A stretch of 64,000 nucleotides of DNA from Chondrosia reniformis (lineage: Eukaryota; Porifera; Demospongiae; Chondrillida; Chondrillidae): NCBI GenBank assembly GCA_947172415.1, contig OX359195.1, positions 3,199,501-3,263,500 on the forward strand, read 5' to 3'. The position numbers and the translations under genes were made by a program. This document shows, piece after piece, positions 40,327 to 56,769 of the stretch. Each line of letters opens with the position of its first letter. Positions within the stretch are counted from its first letter, which is position 1. A model generated the notes under the pieces. It was not told the DNA's origin and made no database searches. It worked only from the letters and a program-made list of their open reading frames with translations.

Positions 40327-42017
40327 TTATTGTATCTTCATTACTTCTTTAAGGGATTGTTGGCTGTCTCTGAATACTTTGCTGTTGTCAAGGTGCTGGC
40401 CAAGAAATTTTCCATATTGCACTAGCCCTTTTACAAATGGGTCTTCTTTGGTGTTTGATGAAATACGACCTTTCCCCCATGCAGTATCCAGATTGTGTGG
40501 ATCATAGCCAACAAGTGCATCGTTGAAAAGGAGTATCCACACTGCCATCCAGCCTAGCTGCATAAAGTCGCACTGTTCACGAGTCAAGCGACCCTCCAAA
40601 AATCAGTACAAACAGCTATGACATTTTGGAATTGCATCCGACCCTACATTTATTTTACACGTTCAAAATCAATCAACACTGCATATACTTTTTCTCCATC
40701 ATACCTGAAACAAATGTTTGGCAAACGAATATCCAAGTGTGCATAATCAAAGCTATGAAGCTGATCAATTGCCTGTTTGGTACTCCTCAACAAGGCTACA
40801 AGACACTTTCGGGCCTCGCTGAGTGGCGGAATTGCTGCAGGAAATTGAAGGAATGGAATATCAAGATTGAAAACAGGAAGTTTCTGTTCATGCATAAGCA
40901 GACGATCTATTCTTCGTTCCTCGTGTTGCAATTCTTTGATGGTAAAGCTAAACAAAGCAGTGTTTGTATAATTTTCCTTATTAAGCCAGAATTTGTAGAT
41001 TTTTCCAATATCAGCATGCAAGATGAAGGAGTTCCAGGATTGTAGTTGTGCCATTGTGACTCCTTTCTTAAGCTTAAATTTTCTCCCAAGTTCACCAAGC
41101 TCTGTTTCTGTTAGTTTGATGGGATATGCACGAATATGATTGAGAGAGGGTCCAAGTTGACCAATAGCATCCTTGTTGGCTTGATACCCCGCCTTAACTC
41201 TTGCTTTCACTTCTTTCCAAGATGATACCCTTTCGAATGCATAGTAAAAGGAGAGTGCCTCAAACCGCACAGTCACCTTTGTGACAAAAAAGGGCTCACT
41301 GCTCTTAGGAAGTACAAACCCAACCACTTCATTAATGTTGTACTGGTATCGCAGCATACGCAGCTGTGTCATAAGTCCAATGACCTCTTTATTTAATGTT
41401 TCTCTATATCCTTCGGGTCCTTTTCCTGAGTGTACTTCGGCAACAAGTATGACAACATTTCTTCTGTCTTCCCCCTCTAAGATCCATATATCAGGTCTTT
41501 GTTTTGTAGTACAAAATAAATCTGGCAAAACCTCCCACTGCTTAACAATTTTGTCAGAATGACAATTGTATTCACGTGAACCAGTGCAGTGTTTAATGAA
41601 ACGAGACGCATCTTCCTCATCTTCACCTGTCAAAGGGACCCCAGCACTTGCACAAAGGGTACAGAGATTGTAATATTGCTTGTCTCGCCAGTTCAATGCA
41701 GCCTCAAAGTCACGGTCGTGAAGTGTAAAGTCGCGAATGTATTCAGGTAAATTCAACTTTGATGCTGTTGATGCGCTCGCAGACTTGGACCACGCGGCGT
41801 GATCCCTGTAGAGAAGATAAGTCACTGTAAAAGTAACAATGTCTGAGACATTACCCCCTTTGCCTTATCACTATTTCTGACCTGTAAACCCACTTTTCTG
41901 TCTAACGCTAACACCAGTCTCCTCACTAATAACAGAAACTAACCTTTCTCGGTAGTTCATGTACTCAATGTCCAAGTTCCGTTCTATTCCTAGTCTAAAG
42001 TCTACGGCTACGGCCAT
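40327..42017 (-). CDS. PD-(D/E)XK nuclease-like plus atypical kinase-like protein, three exons
   Basis: Exons 42017-41944, 41805-40659 and 40593-40327 have GT/AG borders and matching phase, giving about 495 residues from MAVAVDFRLGIERN to VMKIQ. Residues about 130-220 contain RPDIWIL, then VVILVAEVHSG and LMTQLRMLRYQY: a P-D..(hydrophobic strand)E-x-H pattern plus helix that resembles a PD-(D/E)XK core. Residues about 330-440 contain LHSFDYAHLDIRLPNIC (HxDxxxxN catalytic loop) and VLIDFER (DFG position), then MQLGWMAVWILL, a kinase-like C-lobe. No normal glycine loop or APE motif was seen. The reading is open with no damage. A nuclease-like/kinase pairing recalls Crinkler-type and FunK1-type proteins; identity and function are inference. 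Confidence 0.7.
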
Positions 42018-42039: not shown

Positions 42040-42818
42040 CAGGGCCGGAGCCAGTTCTTTTTAAGTGGGGAGGCCAATGAGGCTTCTGGTCCTATATCTC
42101 ATACAATTATCCCTGTGAGCTAATCTGGTGATTGGAGTCACTTCATTCTCCAGCTATGTGACCTTCAAACTGCTTAGCTATGTGACACTGTAGCTATCAC
42201 TCACTTGTACTACATGCCTTAAAGTGCCTAGCTCAAATAGACCTGTATACATACAATATATAGCTGCTACATCCGAGTCAGATAGTTAAACAGAGCCTGA
42301 ACAGAGTTATTACATAAATACAAGCTACAAACAACAAAAACGTGTGCACATGCACCTGCATGCATGTGGTAAATTTGTATATTTCCTGTATTTTACTATA
42401 TAAACAAAAACATATTACTTAAAGTTACTAAATGTCCCTAATCTGCCCTTTCTGCCCATAACAAATTCTCTGCCAGTCTGAACCATCATAGGACCAATTC
42501 GCTGGGCCATAGTGATACTGTGTACGAGCGCGGAAACGTCCGAGAAGGCGTGGTGACACGTATTTACAGTCACAAAATGAGTATGGGACCCAGTTTGGGC
42601 GCATGTAGGTCAGGTAACGAAACACGTACGCGTCGATGACGTCATTAGAAAATGGAGGTCGGTAAAGTCTGACTACATACAGCGTTGATTGCAACAAAAT
42701 GCTCGAGCGGTTCAAGCCTTAAAGGTATAAACAGTTAGGTTTTGATGCAAAATTTTGTTATGACCAAAAAAGTGGGGCGGCTATGGACGCCCCGGCCGCC
42801 CCTATGCCGCCGGCCCTG
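42040..42818. mobile_element. hAT-like non-autonomous element with 5-bp duplication
   Basis: Ends CAGGGCCGGAGCC and (complement) CAGGGCCGGCGGC, flanked by GACTA at 42035-42039 and 42819-42823. Inside is AT-rich sequence plus a minus-strand frame (42715-42428) with no known domain. Its left end lies 22 bases upstream of the start codon of the kinase-like gene, so it forms that gene's promoter region. Confidence 0.7.
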
Positions 42819-44333
42819 GACTAACTGTCCAAGAAAGATGTGAGGACAACTACCCGAAATAACGAGGTGTGACTTGCCCGGAGTCGTGTGTTAGACCATA
42901 TATGGTGGACCAATACGATTCGTTCATTCCATCGGTTATTACGCAATCAAACGAGTGGCTCTCCCTCTCTCTCTCTAACTGGATTGGAAGCAGGTATGGG
43001 TCTCACTACTTTCACACAATTTTATGTGGTGACGTCATAACACTTAAATTATAGCAATGAATTTTATCAATTAACTAAACACACTTAGGTGTATGGCGCT
43101 GAAGTTAGGGGTTTTAGCAGTGTCCCTTCAATTTGGCATGTAGCTTCTTCGGAGCTATTTTACCATTGTTACTTGACTGATGGCACTCATCACTTTCCTT
43201 CTAAATTTTTCTCAGAGATAGAGTTTGTTGTACTTCAAGACTTTCTAAAGTTGCAAAATTCACTAAGTAAGCTGACCTTTGGAGAAGAAGGGGTAAGTTT
43301 GCAGTCCAACCCAGAAGTGTAGTTTTATGGCTTCTTTAATTGTGTTGTTTTGTAGTTGTTTGTATATAGTACTGTTTATTATACATGCTACATTTTACTT
43401 CTGTACAGATGGGAGATTACATTTCAGTTATGTCTGACATTGTTTCATTTCATTCAAAGAGACTTGAACACCTTGCGATACATTTCGATATTGAGTCATT
43501 CACTTGTGTTGTCATTCACTGCACAAGTCTTGAGTTGTGAGGTTGCTGACTTGAAATGATACCACAAACTATATCCTTTCTCGTTGTTATGTAGTTCTTA
43601 ATCAGAAGATGAAGGCAAGTGTGCTAATGAGCTCAGTATTTATCTGTTGTCAGTTGAAATCTCTTAGTCTGTGGAGTGTCAACTTTACACATGAAGATTT
43701 AGAGGTCTTACTTGACAACCTACCACAATTGGTGACCATGGAGATGCATTTTTGTACATATGAAGGTAGTGATATTGATGCCAGTGTCAATGTAAGTTGT
43801 GGAATACATATATAAGTGTAAAGAACAGTAAAACGTCTATACAAAACAGCTAATATTTTAATTGAGAAATGTGAATCTTATATACAGTATAGATATAGTC
43901 TATTAATAGTGAATATTGTATTTGGTCAGCGGTCATATTATATTTGTTCCACTGAAATGTGTTCATATTCTATCCAGCTATATAGTGTATCATGTATGTG
44001 ACACAAACCAGTGAATGCAGCTATGGGACAACTCTATAATCAGCTGTAGTCACTACATGTGATTGGTTGCTGGTCACATGAGATCTCACTGTATGACACT
44101 TGTGTGCAGTGTTAAGTGAAGTGTGAATGTTTAGATATATCTTTATGTGTAGTAATCCTCTATTTAGATAAGCACTTGTATATATTGTTATTCTTGTCAA
44201 TGTCTTTATATTCTAGTGCGTTAGGAGGCACCCCAGTCTGGAAGATGTGACATTAGTCCAGTGGTGTAGTGTGAATTTGATTAAAGTGTTTTTATTTGGT
44301 ATCAAAGACAAACTAAAAATGAAGAAAGTAATT

Positions 44334-45732
44334 CAAGGCCGTCAGACCAGGTCAGGCTTTCGGGCCATGGCCTGACCACTTTTCGTCCTGGGTAGTCCTT
44401 GAGAAACGTCCAAAAATTTGGTAAAACAGATCTTCTACCCCCCATGGACTGAACAACCTCCGCAATAGTAGTATGAGTGATTGGGGCTGAGTTTCTTAGT
44501 GTTGAAAGCAGTAAGAGCCTCAATTACTTTGGTGGCGCGAAGAGTAGTACTGTACCCTCCTGCAAGGAAGGCTAGCAGCACGTCGAAGTCCCTTCTTGTG
44601 CAAAGAGAACGCACAGCGTCATAGGTGTCCGGAAATACCCCACGCATTATGTGTAATCTATTGCATGCATGCATGCTCGACTCACTTGTACCACTCTGGA
44701 ACGCCTGAGGAACGACGAATCTTTCTCACTTCTGTGGAGTAAAGTGTCTGCTTTGCGAGACAAGCATCAGGTCAATGCCGCAGAACTACCTCGTCGCCGC
44801 AAGGTCCCACAGCGTATTGAGATTGGCACTGGACAAGGCACCCATCCAGCATCGGTGCAAGATTGTTTCATGCCGAGTATTTCCAAGTACTCGATTCTAC
44901 CTTGGCTTGTATCAGGCAGCGCTCTAACCAGCCAGGGTATCAGACTTATTGTCACTTAGAGAGCCTTCTTACTTCAGCAGCTGCTGGTTCCGACTTTACA
45001 CAAGATCTCAGTTTTATTGCAACATTCTATGACACTGACATTGATCCACAGGTACTTCGCACTCAGTTGGAATTGTTCCGATCCATTATCCAGTCAGCAT
45101 TCCATGCCACCACTGTTGGAATACACGAGATCATCAAGCACGTTCGCAGCCTCTCCTCTGGTGTCCGTGTTAGCATTTCACAGGTGTGCATCCTTCTCAA
45201 CTTGCTTCTGGTGATGCCAGCTACTAATTCTGTTAGCGAACGGAGTGCGTCTGCTTTGAGGAGAGTGAAAACGTACTTGAGAACAACCATGTCTAAAGTC
45301 AGACTCAACAACCTTCTTGTTTTGCATGTCTACAAGGACAGGTGTGATTCACTTGCATTGGCTGACTGCCTCAATGACTTTGTGATTGGCAGTGAGCATC
45401 GTCTTTCCCTGTTTGGTAAATTTATTTAGGTGACTCTCAGTGATATATCCTATACTGTAACACAACATTTTGCCTTTTCTTATGCCTGAACATTTTCTTA
45501 TTCAAGTTTATTTTGCATGATTTTTGTTCCATGCATGCAGTATTTGTTCAGATGGGTTTCCTAAATAGTGTTAACTGCCAATAAATATTAATGTGACTAT
45601 AAAGTTTAATAAACAGCTAGGTCTTGTAGCCCCAGGTATGTTTATTCTCGGAATCTTGGAGTGCGCATGGGGGGAACAGTAGCAGGGGATGGTATAGGCC
45701 TGACCACTCTAGAACTGCTTCCAACGGGCCTG
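44334..45732 (+). mobile_element. hAT transposon relic, 5-bp target duplication
   Basis: Ends CAAGGCCGTC and (complement) CAGGCCCGTTGG, with TAATT duplicated at 44329-44333 and 45733-45737. It carries the C-terminal half of a hAT transposase: RNDESFSLLWSKV, ELPRRRKVPQRIEIG (44669-44840), then after a frameshift RQRSNQPGYQTYCHLESLL and the dimerisation block VMPATNSVSERSASALRRVK and RLNNLLVLHVYKDR (to TAG 45429). BED finger and most of the catalytic core are missing. Confidence 0.85.
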
Positions 45733-46124
45733 TAATTGAATGTCAACTTTACTAAATGCTCAGGTAAGTTTATTGTTATCAAAATATTCAAGTCTATCGA
45801 TGTCTTGTAAATGTTTTTATACATTTTGAGTGAAAATTGTAGTAAAGTTGTTATAACTTGTTAACTTGTCAATATGAGGTCTATGAGGTCTAGTCCTGAT
45901 AACCTGATGGTGTGTGATTGTATGTAATATATTTTGTAACTTTTGTAGATGCTGATTGTGTAGAGTTACTAGCATGTGTTGTGAGTTGTATGAAGAAGAG
46001 CTCACTGAAGACACTTTGTCTCAGGAGGATGGAAGGAGTGCCACAATGTGGTGAAGTGTTTGACAGTCTTGGAAGCAGTGAAATAGAAGAGTTTGAGTTT
46101 GAACTGTACAGTACTGCATTACCT

Positions 46125-48136
46125 GTGAGTGTGATGATGATATATAGAATATCATCTTGTCCACTTCACTCTCCCCATTCACCACTCTGGTCCATACACA
46201 CCTAACACTGTATCCCCTCATAGCTATATAGCTATTGTATGTGTATCTGAAATGAGTTCCAAGTATGTGTACATAGAAACTGTAAAAGGCTGTGCAGAAA
46301 CTACTGACTAGTATTGCTTCTCAAATATATGGACATAACTTATCTTTAGAGGGTTCACTTTGTTACTCCTGTTTAATTGGTAATGTCCATACGCTCCATC
46401 AATGCTTAGGGATAATACATATATACCACACCTCATGATGGGGCAAGCCATGCATGTATATATATGTAACCCTATATACCAGTTCTTCCTAATCAGGAAC
46501 CAGGGGTTATATCCTTTATCCTGTGCATATTATGCAATAAGCTGGCAGAAGGCTGGCAGAAGGCTGAGGTAGGCAGCAAACGTATACCACTAAATATTAG
46601 GGGGTATAAAGTTGCCTAGCAACTCCCACAATACGATATAGATTTTAAGGTGTAGGCAGGGCGATGAGGGAAATTGTAATAATTAAGCCCAGCTTTCTTA
46701 AGTCAATGTTTTGGAACCTATATGGTTTATCCACAAAGTTATGAATGACCAACTAATATGACATGGCGACATATCAATTATGAGGTTAGAATTACAAATA
46801 CCTTAAGGCAAATTGCGACCTATTACCGGGGCTTGGTTACATGATAAGTCTCCCTGCACCTACATTATATACAATGAGTGCTTTGGAAATATGAGGTACC
46901 ACCGCATGCTGCATACCCACTGAGGCCTGATCACATCCGAAGATGGAGAGAAAAGAAACCCCTGGAACCTGACAGGATGGGACCAATTAGGGATGATGCC
47001 TAACTAAGTAATATATGCGCTAAGAATATGTATAGTAATCCATGTACAGACAGTTGAGTGAATTATAAAAACTTGACAATGTACTATAACCATACCTTTC
47101 CACTTGACAGACCTATAACATATATAAAATGAAGAGAGCATACATACGAATTACACGGGACTCAGCACCAAATTATGAATTGGATTCTATTTTTTTAAAA
47201 CCTTAATGGAAATCAAAGGATCGATCAAACAATATGCTATTACATCATGAATTCATTGATGCTTATTTGAATCCTTAATTGGAGACATGCATGGCTCCTG
47301 GATTGAATAAACGAATGAAAACTTAAGGTAATCAAGTGGGATTATAGATATATTGAAACTCTATAATGGTTTATATGCCATAAAAATTTGGGAATGAACT
47401 ATCCATATAGGGAGGATGGGATTTTTTAACACTTGGAGCTAACGTTACGTTGCTAGGATGAAAGACTTAGGTTACTAAGCAAGACCTAGCGGCTGTGCGC
47501 CTGCAGAGCTCTTTGAATGCATACATGACCAATGTTAGTAACTATTGTAAATACAACTCGTATTGCGCAATCCTTGATAATATGCTTTATGCTATATATA
47601 TCTATCCGCATATAGAAAATATAGATAATCTGTAGATATATAATATACGCCTTGAGTAAAACGCTCTGTTCATTAACTCTGTTTAACTTAAGGTTAAACC
47701 TCATATAATGTGTAGCAGTCTTATGGCTATCCCATAGTTGTTCCAAATAATGTTGTTTTAGAAAAGTTATTTAATAATTGTAATATTTATTAGTGAAAAT
47801 GTTTGTTTGAGAAGAGAGATGTGTCTTGTGTGGTGCAAATTATAGTTCAAATGGTCAATCCTTCTGACCAGTCCAATCTATTTGATAATTAGAGAGTGCT
47901 CTGCTCATTCACTGTTCTCTCAGATTGACTGGTATATGTAGAGACTGGAAGTGCTGTCTCATTTCCATGTAGTTATTCCATCCACACAATGTTTACATCA
48001 TGTCAGCTAACCTTGTTCTGAGCAGAAGACATTTTATTGTTATATCCACTATATTGTGATGTGATATTTCAGTTGACACTTTTGTATAGTGTATCCCCTG
48101 TGTATACCACATCTCTGTTATGTGTGGTATGTACAG
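46125..48136. other. 2-kb stretch between LRR blocks, no gene seen
   Basis: Likely transposon-derived but not identified. Contains a tandem GGCTGGCAGAA (46547-46570) and AT-rich sequence. No coding or terminal repeat supported. Confidence 0.4.
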
Positions 48137-54588: not shown

Positions 54589-56769
54589 GCGTAGACAACC
54601 AATTATCGCCCATGTTTTATCCCTAACATTATAGGGGTTCTGGCTTACCACTTCTGATTTGTTAGTCTTACATAATGAAATTAGCATATAGTGGTGATTT
54701 GAACACCAAAAGTTCCTTCTATAAGTAAGCGCTGGGATCAGGAAGTAAGCCATTCAAAAATCAATTATCACCATCAACACCAATTATCACCCACCGGCAA
54801 ATTTTGTATAATCCATCATCAACCTGGCAGGCTTTGCTTAACAGTGCTATTGCATAAAAGGTTCAGTCATTATCTAAAGGTCAATAAGCAATATATTACA
54901 TAGAGCATGTACAAACCTGTGTTGCTAAATATAAATCACCAGAAAATGTTGGTTGGTCAGCTATTATTTTAGAACCTGTTACTCCAGCTGATGAATCAAA
55001 AGTAGGAGCTTCAGGATGATGTATCCTACGTAAGTGGAGATAATATTGATCAATATCAAGGTCATAGCCGCTTCCCTGAATCGTTGTTGATACAGTTCAT
55101 ATTGTTTGTCACTGAAATCATCACCATGACCGACACCATTGTCACTTTCTCCTACTTCACCTATATACCTACATGCACACAGACATAAATACAAATACAC
55201 TTATACATATATAGGTATTACGTACATATATTAATTGAATATCTTACATAAGTGGTGAGCTTTAATTCCAGAATTATCTAGATCACCGCTATTGTCTTGG
55301 ACACTTTTTTTATCAGTTTCAGTCTCTCCAAGTGGTTCCCCATTACCACCAGATTCTCCGACAATGGAAAAAGCTGCTGGGTAGACCCCACATGTTCTGA
55401 ATCCAGCTATGATTTTAATGGGGATAAGTGCTTTCAACCAAGCCTGAGAGAACAGCAAGTTGAAGTTAACTTTGGTGACAATTTCCCCGATTTCTTTGCA
55501 ATAAAGCTGTGACACACATTTGAGTGGTTTGAAAACTCCACAATCTAAAGGTTGCGACTCGTGTGTGGTATGTGGTGGCAAGCATAGCATTGTGATGTCG
55601 TGGCCTCTGGCAAAGCGCAGAACTCTTGGTTGTTAGTGTGTGCTGTGTCCATCTAGTAGCAGCAGTATAGAGAGCACCCAGATACAGCATGCACAATAAA
55701 ATGCTCCACAAGCCATCCTTCGAACAAGTCTGTATTGATCCATCCATTGTCGCTAAGCCAATACCTCAATCCATGAACTTCATGTTTAGTCCAGCTGTGG
55801 TTTAAATTCTTGCCATCATAAATGATCATTGGTGGAATAACCTATCTACTATAGAAATTTGTCCTTTCTTACCAGCCTGTCGATATCTAACCTTTTTGGA
55901 GCCTGTCTGTGCTACTACATTTGGGGTTCTAAAATCCAGTGGCATTCCACTTTTATAGACATTATAAATCTGTGCTGGCTTATCCATTAGCTTATTTGTG
56001 TCCAAGATGTCTTTGAGTAATGGTCCATGGTCTCCTTATTGATTGCATCCATACATACATTTGCTGTGCTATCACTACGTCTGAGAGACAGGTCACCTTG
56101 TCGATTGAGAAATCTATTCCACCACCCACTGACCAAAGTTTACTTTCTTTAGCAAGCCCTTTTCTCTAGCAACAGACTCGGCAATATGCATAACATCTTT
56201 TCTTCTCTTTCCATATCCAACATTAGCGTATTTCTTCAAAAAATCTCCTAGGTCTGCTTCTTCTGTGCAACTGAGGTAAGGTCTTGGTCCAGGTTTTGTA
56301 CCATGCTGTACTCTGCCACGTAATCGATCTTTAAGAGTTGAATATGGAAATCCATGTCCACGAACTGCTGTCCGAACTGCTCCTCCCTCTTCAACTGCCT
56401 TTATAGCAGCTACCATCTGTTTATTTGTCGATTGTTTTCGTTTCATTGAAGGCCTAGAGACATGCGATCATGTTTGAAAGTCACTTGGCTGCTGTCAGCG
56501 TTTTCGCCTGCATAAACATTCATTCACGTTACGACAACAGCACCTGTTGTATGCAAAAAAACAGCATATATTATAAGTTTAGTTCGCAATATAAATATAG
56601 AAGATACTTACAAGGATTTCGTCCAAGCCTTGGCCAGTGTGAAACGCCACTCAATTGTAAACGAATATACCGTCCGTATTCTATATTAATTTAGTCGTAC
56701 ACTATTTCATCATCGCGGGCCGAATAGGTGGTAGATAATTGATGACGGTCGATAATTGGTTACCTACGC
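54589..56769 (-). mobile_element. pogo-type DNA transposon, full-length but inactive
   Basis: Ends GCGTAGACAACCAATTATCG and (complement) GCGTAGGTAACCAATTATCG, TA at both borders (54587-54588, 56770-56771). A second CAATTATC word follows inside each end, resembling sub-terminal binding repeats. It encloses a broken transposase on the minus strand. Confidence 0.75.
54900..56446 (-). pseudogene. pogo-type (DDE_1) transposase
   Basis: Starts MKRKQSTNKQMVAAIKAVEE with a psq-type HTH (YSTLKDRLRGRV), then the Tc5-type HTH (GDFLKKYANVGYGKRRKDV). After shifts: KPAQIFNVYK-like AQIYNVYKSGMPLD, SKKVRYRQAGKKGQ, MIIYDGKNLNHSW, GWINTDLFEGWLVEHF, GHSTHTNN, LPPHTTHESQPLDCGVFKPL and AWLKALIPIKIIAGFRTCGVYP, and the family's tail FSDKQYELYQQRFREGYDL. 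At least three frameshifts (about 56100, 55600 and 55060) and stops. Order and spacing are otherwise complete. Confidence 0.8.

Follow-up and report, generated by a model that had tools for sequence, protein, structure and literature searches.

A decayed gene in the sponge Chondrosia reniformis belongs to a multigene family that joins an endonuclease-like domain to an atypical protein kinase

The genome of the demosponge Chondrosia reniformis (117,379,552 bases in 15 contigs) contains a multigene family, whose tens of copies lie clustered or within segmental duplications and are joined by diverged subfamilies. In an intact member, two exons specify a protein of about 510-530 residues, in which a short helical segment at the N-terminus is followed by a PD-(D/E)XK-like domain, a linker, and a complete protein kinase. 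The copy that is the starting point of this analysis lies on the minus strand, at positions 40327 to 42017 of a stretch of 64,000 nucleotides (C7:3199501-3263500; hereafter, the window), and is a decayed member of that family. The reading that we favor, and to which we assign a roughly even chance, is that the family is a putative nuclease under kinase control, operating in conflict or immunity, with a Crinkler-like architecture. The value of the observation resides in the family rather than in the window copy.

The sequence-only reading of this stretch described an intact, undamaged gene of three exons. The minus-strand join 42017-41944 + 41805-40659 + 40593-40327 is indeed an open reading of 495 residues, contains the motifs RPD...AEVHS, HLDIRLPN, and LIDFER, and matches many copies in its own genome at E of 0, far beyond chance. 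The second intron, however, is not an ancestral one: the 65 nt assigned to it (40594-40658) align at the DNA level to 66 nt in 12/12 close C7 paralogues, where they make up 22 codons of the kinase activation segment. Of the 27 proteins recovered in a homologue search with the 495-residue reading, 24 translate through this stretch, which in protein P0001 reads IDFERVKINVGSYTIPKYHSCLYRFLEGRLT, in the context IDFER-VKINVGSYTIPKYHSCLYRFLEG-RLT; the other three (P0017, P0018, and P0023) are shorter and stop within or ahead of it. The window copy lacks one nucleotide in the codon after Arg392, a base present in all 12 C7 paralogues, and its ancestral frame runs into an in-frame stop at 40605-40603. 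The three-exon model needed intron 2 because both of these main lesions fall inside the 65 nt. Against the same 12 copies, the window copy has three more gaps, of one codon (residue 32), two codons (338-339), and 4 nt (residues 501-502). The genome search with P0001 gave 59 rows, and among the best 13 the window copy is the sole split one, divided over two frames (P0001 residues 1-400 and 387-505). A one-base sequencing error is an unlikely cause of the deletion, given the primary quality value (QV) of 69.8 stated for the odChoReni1.1 assembly of this species (PMC12181767).

We therefore class the window copy as a pseudogene, with a truncated gene as the most favorable alternative, and its annotation as a functional gene is unwarranted. 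What is still open of exon 2 (40659..41805) encodes, by sequence comparison, the nuclease-like domain, the kinase N-lobe, the catalytic loop, and the IDF motif; then come the former intron 2, that is, activation-segment codons with the deletion and the stop (40594..40658), and a remnant of the kinase C-lobe coding region (40327..40593), which genome search and DNA alignment place in a frame different from that of the upstream part. Because the stop would fall in the last exon, a truncated product ending soon after IDFERVK is possible. Two further copies, L025 and L054 (C3:856400-858400), lose the frame in the same region as the window copy, within P0001 residues ~393-413 of the activation segment, and in all three broken copies the nuclease domain and the catalytic loop remain open, a coincidence that may be accidental or may mean that the kinase C-lobe has been lost repeatedly.

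The rest of the proposed gene structure fared better. Exon 1 and intron 1 of the window copy are, judging by comparison with its paralogues, real. Exon 1 (41944..42017, minus strand) runs from the ATG to the donor GTTAGT and encodes MAVAVDFRLGIERNLDIEYMNYRE(R), and paralogues share its start, donor, and phase; intron 1 (41806..41943, minus strand) is 138 nt long, GT...CTACAG, with splice sites kept in the paralogues and with interior indels of lengths not divisible by 3. Exon 1 was located by the pattern ATG...GTTAGTTTCTG in 26 of 29 loci; ATG and donor are built into this pattern, whereas phase is not, and the exon lengths of 74, 62, 56, or 47 nt leave 2 modulo 3 in 25/26 loci. An open, full-length reading of two exons and 510-529 residues is present in 23/29 loci. 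As for the others, L009 has an exon 1 that is intact by DNA alignment although the pattern missed it, L015 and L020 yielded no exon 1, truncation affects L025 and L038, and in L037 an exon 1 of 46 nt, the exception in length, shifts the frame. Gene models that begin with MTYLLYRDHAA (P0001 and P0002) seem to include the translated 3' end of intron 1.

Conceivably, the damaged stretch could have been turned into an intron, so that a three-exon mRNA of the window copy would yield a kinase without its activation segment. The necessary signals are at hand, namely, a GTAAAA donor, an AG acceptor, and a branch-site-like TACTGAT, and excision of the 65 nt preserves the frame. Nevertheless, we regard such intronization as very improbable, given that the stretch is coding in 12/12 close paralogues, that both lesions sit inside it, that a transposon lies just upstream of the start of the window copy, and that the private changes of this copy are nearly all replacement or nonsense. 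Among the compared codons of 11 C7 copies (L015 and L020 left out), the window copy has 24 private substitutions, 22 replacement or nonsense (two of which fall in its stop codon) vs 2 silent, the highest number of the 11, the ten others having 1-16.

Beyond the window, the paralogues that the sequence-only reading advised looking for proved to be plentiful. DNA identity to the window copy is 93-96% for a dispersed group on C7, 79-83% for a cluster on C3, 78-80% for a C7 cluster near 0.67 Mb, and 69-70% for a C7 cluster near 0.02-0.04 Mb; more diverged relatives keep the two-domain layout on C1, C5, and C6, and are found in pieces on C11. The C7 copies L046-L050 lie within longer duplicated units, with flanks common to positions 39-54 kb of the window, including pieces resembling leucine-rich repeat (LRR) genes, whereas L051, L052, and L053, from other clusters, match the window at the gene only, plus, in L053, the near 3' flank. 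Beside two of the C7 copies (L047 and L050), there are open repeats resembling minisatellites (VVVGISLLPVVKMNIN...) and gene fragments that, by eye, look like WW domains. Fifteen proteins, P0024-P0038, also came out of the homologue searches, the third of which, with distant members as queries, contributed one protein. Searching back to the sponge genome, which covered four of these 15, gave best identities in long rows of ~40% (P0028), 33% (P0025), 28% (P0036), and 39% (P0038), with shorter rows reaching up to 54%; these low values imply that the four proteins stem from outside this genome. No relatives in prokaryotes or viruses were confirmed by family alignment among 8 viral-contig and 19 prokaryote-contig pattern hits, each scan employing one short motif, so that distant relatives could have escaped it.

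The kinase is the more readily recognized half of the protein, and the call made for it from HLDIRLPN and LIDFER holds. In an alignment of 43 proteins (34 of 37, with three fragments dropped, and 9 diverged frames of the same genome), K279, H366, D368, N373, and D389 are invariant (43/43), and D423 is found in 41/41 proteins that have a residue there. The family displays the bilobal protein-kinase fold, and the kinase of the relatives looks catalytically complete so far as conserved residues can tell. The canonical Gly-rich loop GxGxxG is missing, the matching stretch being QSWNSFIL..GKIYK (alignment, by eye), and hence, we call the kinase atypical and do not file it as a canonical eukaryotic protein kinase. 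The domain begins at P0001 residue 259 (40327..41054, minus strand; broken from 40658 onward), and by the codon map from which the residue coordinates of both domains were derived, the window copy retains K279 at 40994-40992, HxD at 40739-40731, N373 at 40718-40716, and D389 at 40670-40668, the frame breaking right after IDFER. At E<=1, 17 Pfam families were matched by 32 members, Kdo (PF06293) by 28/32 and Pkinase_fungal (PF17667) by 5/32; in P0001, only the catalytic-loop region (residues 347-394) matches. In PDB sequence searches with family profiles, the best 60 of 275 and the best 60 of 324 matches (E<=10) are all kinases by name or unnamed; the same search with exon 2 alone gave just two chance-level rows.

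The N-terminal domain presents a more complicated picture. Its PD-(D/E)XK-like core spans P0001 residues 105-203 (41220..41516, minus strand, as delineated by predicted model, alignment, and codon map), and in the window copy, the nuclease-like residues are D113 (41492-41490), E131 (41438-41436), and the helix residue K147 (41390-41388). The acidic pair PD...E of the PD-(D/E)XK superfamily is kept, D113 in 41/42 and E131 in 42/42 proteins. By contrast, where the motif Lys is expected, there is H133 or its counterparts, H in 29/42, N in 7/42, and others in 6/42, Lys never, so that the site takes the non-canonical form D...E-x-(H/N/Q). Around it, S134 is found in 40/42, R157 in 43/43, R (41) or K (2) at position 160, and K (36/43) or Q (7/43) at helix position 147, which may substitute for the motif Lys. 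Because the motif Lys is replaced, we term the domain PD-(D/E)XK-'like' and assign no superfamily membership. A restriction-endonuclease-like fold is probable, with the structural match being moderate: among the VIA rows of the structure comparison, BpuSI (8.6), DrdV (7.6), and EcoRI (6.4) stand level with mitoribosomal chains (up to 9.1), and Foldseek with the model of this domain gave no match at E<=0.001. The nuclease-like core proposed from the letters alone stands as regards D and E, and is less secure as regards the fold. Profile searches in Pfam (32 members), PADLOC, NCBIfam, and PHROGs (8 members) recognized the kinase half and yielded no credible match to a nuclease for the other half; a viral model library gave nothing at E<=0.001, its weak rows being headed by an SSV2 ORF and including, in tenth place, a Cas4-family exonuclease. 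One locus on C1, L043 (C1:9028500-9037500), holds three diverged tandem paralogues with a variable number of KPDAATDDDAKD repeats within the nuclease-like domain, and two of the three carry a charged KREEA-type repeat in the region of the kinase N-lobe.

Selection within the family differs among the parts of the protein. Changes were counted by parsimony on a tree of 25 copies (the 29 loci minus L015, L020, L025, and L038), with Nei-Gojobori sites and gap-free columns. For the whole protein, dN/dS (w) is 0.82; the nuclease core (105-203) is the most constrained part (w 0.34, p 1.5e-12), followed by the kinase HxD-DF stretch (w 0.49, p 0.0012), whereas the helix and linker (204-258) show an excess of replacements (w 1.94, p 8e-4), and the remaining parts fall at 0.79-1.23. 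In the individual clusters C7a, C3, and C7b, w is, respectively, 0.24, 0.51, and 0.24 for the nuclease core; 0.19, 0.49, and 0.67 (not significant) for the kinase stretch; 1.12 (not significant), 2.64 (p 0.0016), and 2.67 (not significant) for the linker; and 3.03 (p 0.08), 0.89 (not significant), and 8.47 (p 0.023) for the activation segment with alpha-F. Pairwise dN/dS means agree in direction with the tree counts. These values are to be read with the understanding that seven regions were tested, that the regions were set after sliding windows had been inspected, and that gene conversion among tandem copies is outside the model. Both cores are under constraint, and the nuclease site, while unusual, shows no erosion in the relatives at the level of conserved residues.

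A signaling or scaffold protein, in which the kinase would be the only enzyme and the endonuclease-like fold a catalytically dead binding domain, would account for the replacement of the motif Lys in all 42 proteins with that position, for the invariance of the kinase residues in 43/43, and for the best structural rows being mitoribosomal chains, which are not nucleases. We consider this alternative possible, albeit rather unlikely, because it leaves unexplained the near invariance of the acidic pair and the stronger constraint on the nuclease core than on the best kinase stretch across the 25 copies (in C7a alone, the order is reversed). Moreover, BamHI, BglII, and influenza PA are active endonucleases with E-x-E/Q or a helix lysine.

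Under the preferred reading of a kinase-controlled nuclease, the protein would act inside the cell in conflict. The kinase would sense a partner, or would be switched through that partner or through autophosphorylation of the activation segment, and would thereby license the nuclease-like domain. The latter might cut, or only bind, the nucleic acid of invaders, transposons, or doomed cells. The rapid turnover of copies and the rapid change seen in the linker are in keeping with an arms race. More tentatively, and with distinctly less confidence than in the general scheme, we suggest a private, fast-diversifying sponge family of kinase-controlled endonucleases, with a modified D...E-x-H site plus helix lysine and tens of copies per genome, serving as intracellular executioners, anti-invader enzymes, or allorecognition killers, an animal counterpart of the Crinkler REase-kinase toxins (REase, restriction endonuclease). 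Should the intact members prove active, an animal of an early-branching lineage would possess an expanded nuclease-kinase set of its own, a protein type described chiefly among oomycete and fungal effectors, which would bear on how animals handle foreign or selfish nucleic acid and non-self cells. The nuclease half is unnamed by any profile library scanned, and the clusters offer, for structure-function work, natural variants numbering in the tens.

The surroundings of the window copy are rich in mobile elements. A DNA-transposon-like insert of 779 bp with CAGGGCCGG terminal inverted repeats (42040..42818) ends 22 bp upstream of the ATG. It is missing from 10/12 C7 paralogues, those that span both sides of the site (L020 spans it partly, L015 does not), and copies of it occur genome-wide, including one on C3 at 100% identity, so that the insertion looks recent. 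A 98% copy, at C6:5306288-5307063, lies ~2 kb from a family member (C6:5303095-5304204). On the plus strand, opposite the gene, LRR-like gene pieces (43234..46142), weak matches that are part of the duplication unit shared with the window copy, are split in the window by ~2.3 kb (43594-45918) and are unbroken in the paralogous unit L046; within the interruption, a remnant of a hAT dimerisation domain (44821-45426) scores 19.0 bits, below the cut-off of 21.4. We considered and rejected the LRR neighbor as a functional partner: it is common to the C7 units, is unmatched in L051, L052, and L053, and its Pfam matches are below cut-off. Farther away, we label as pogo-like a transposase remnant on the minus strand (55231-56467), with DDE_1 at 55234-55632 and a Psq-type helix-turn-helix at 56117-56467. 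Dozens of near-identical copies and transposons nearby might suggest that the gene belongs to a mobile element and has been carried about as transposon cargo, an origin also proposed for Crinkler-type proteins. We reject this scenario as highly improbable: the copies retain their intron, they lie in tandem clusters or duplicated units with shared flanks extending kilobases past the gene, and the sole terminal-repeat element found at the gene is an insert in its own right, which the paralogues lack.

Literature searches, whose reach does not extend to the main Crinkler survey and its possible mention of sponge members, found no description of this sponge family among the papers listed, and it is on these searches alone that we deem it absent from print. 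The likeness of the family to Kdo/WaaP (PF06293) and fungal (PF17667) kinases is confined to the kinase part, and to our knowledge, neither the Kdo/WaaP nor the Pkinase_fungal model includes a nuclease-like domain. With BpuSI, DrdV, and NucC, identity is 6-12% only, and the sponge family differs from them in that the motif Lys is replaced and a kinase is fused. In RNase L, the nuclease is gated by its kinase-like domain. Ire1 is described as combining a kinase and a KEN nuclease in one animal protein (PMC3710099). The sponge family shares with both the union of a kinase (or kinase-like) domain and a nuclease or nuclease-like domain in one animal protein; however, their nuclease is the HEPN-superfamily KEN domain and follows the kinase, whereas that of the sponge is endonuclease-like and precedes it.

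The closest parallel is with the Crinkler-type (CR/CRN) effectors, for which one account describes an REase-superfamily domain and a protein kinase in single eukaryotic proteins, expanded and diverse families, and helical headers, with toxicity in the REase-kinase group believed to reside in the REase and regulation in the kinase (PMC5289972). The N-terminal part of the predicted model of the sponge family is low-confidence or helical, and the Pfam matches of the 32 members, to 17 families at E<=1, include no Crinkler model. Given that no header was found, we do not claim membership, and the Crinkler likeness seen in the sequence-only reading, whose domain call was largely right even if its intact gene was not, survives as one of architecture and of a plausibly similar mode of action. 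What the two probably share is a restriction-endonuclease-like domain, probable by fold in the sponge family, joined to a kinase, which there is certain; what sets them apart is that the sponge family resides in an animal genome and gave no Crinkler header in the Pfam scan.
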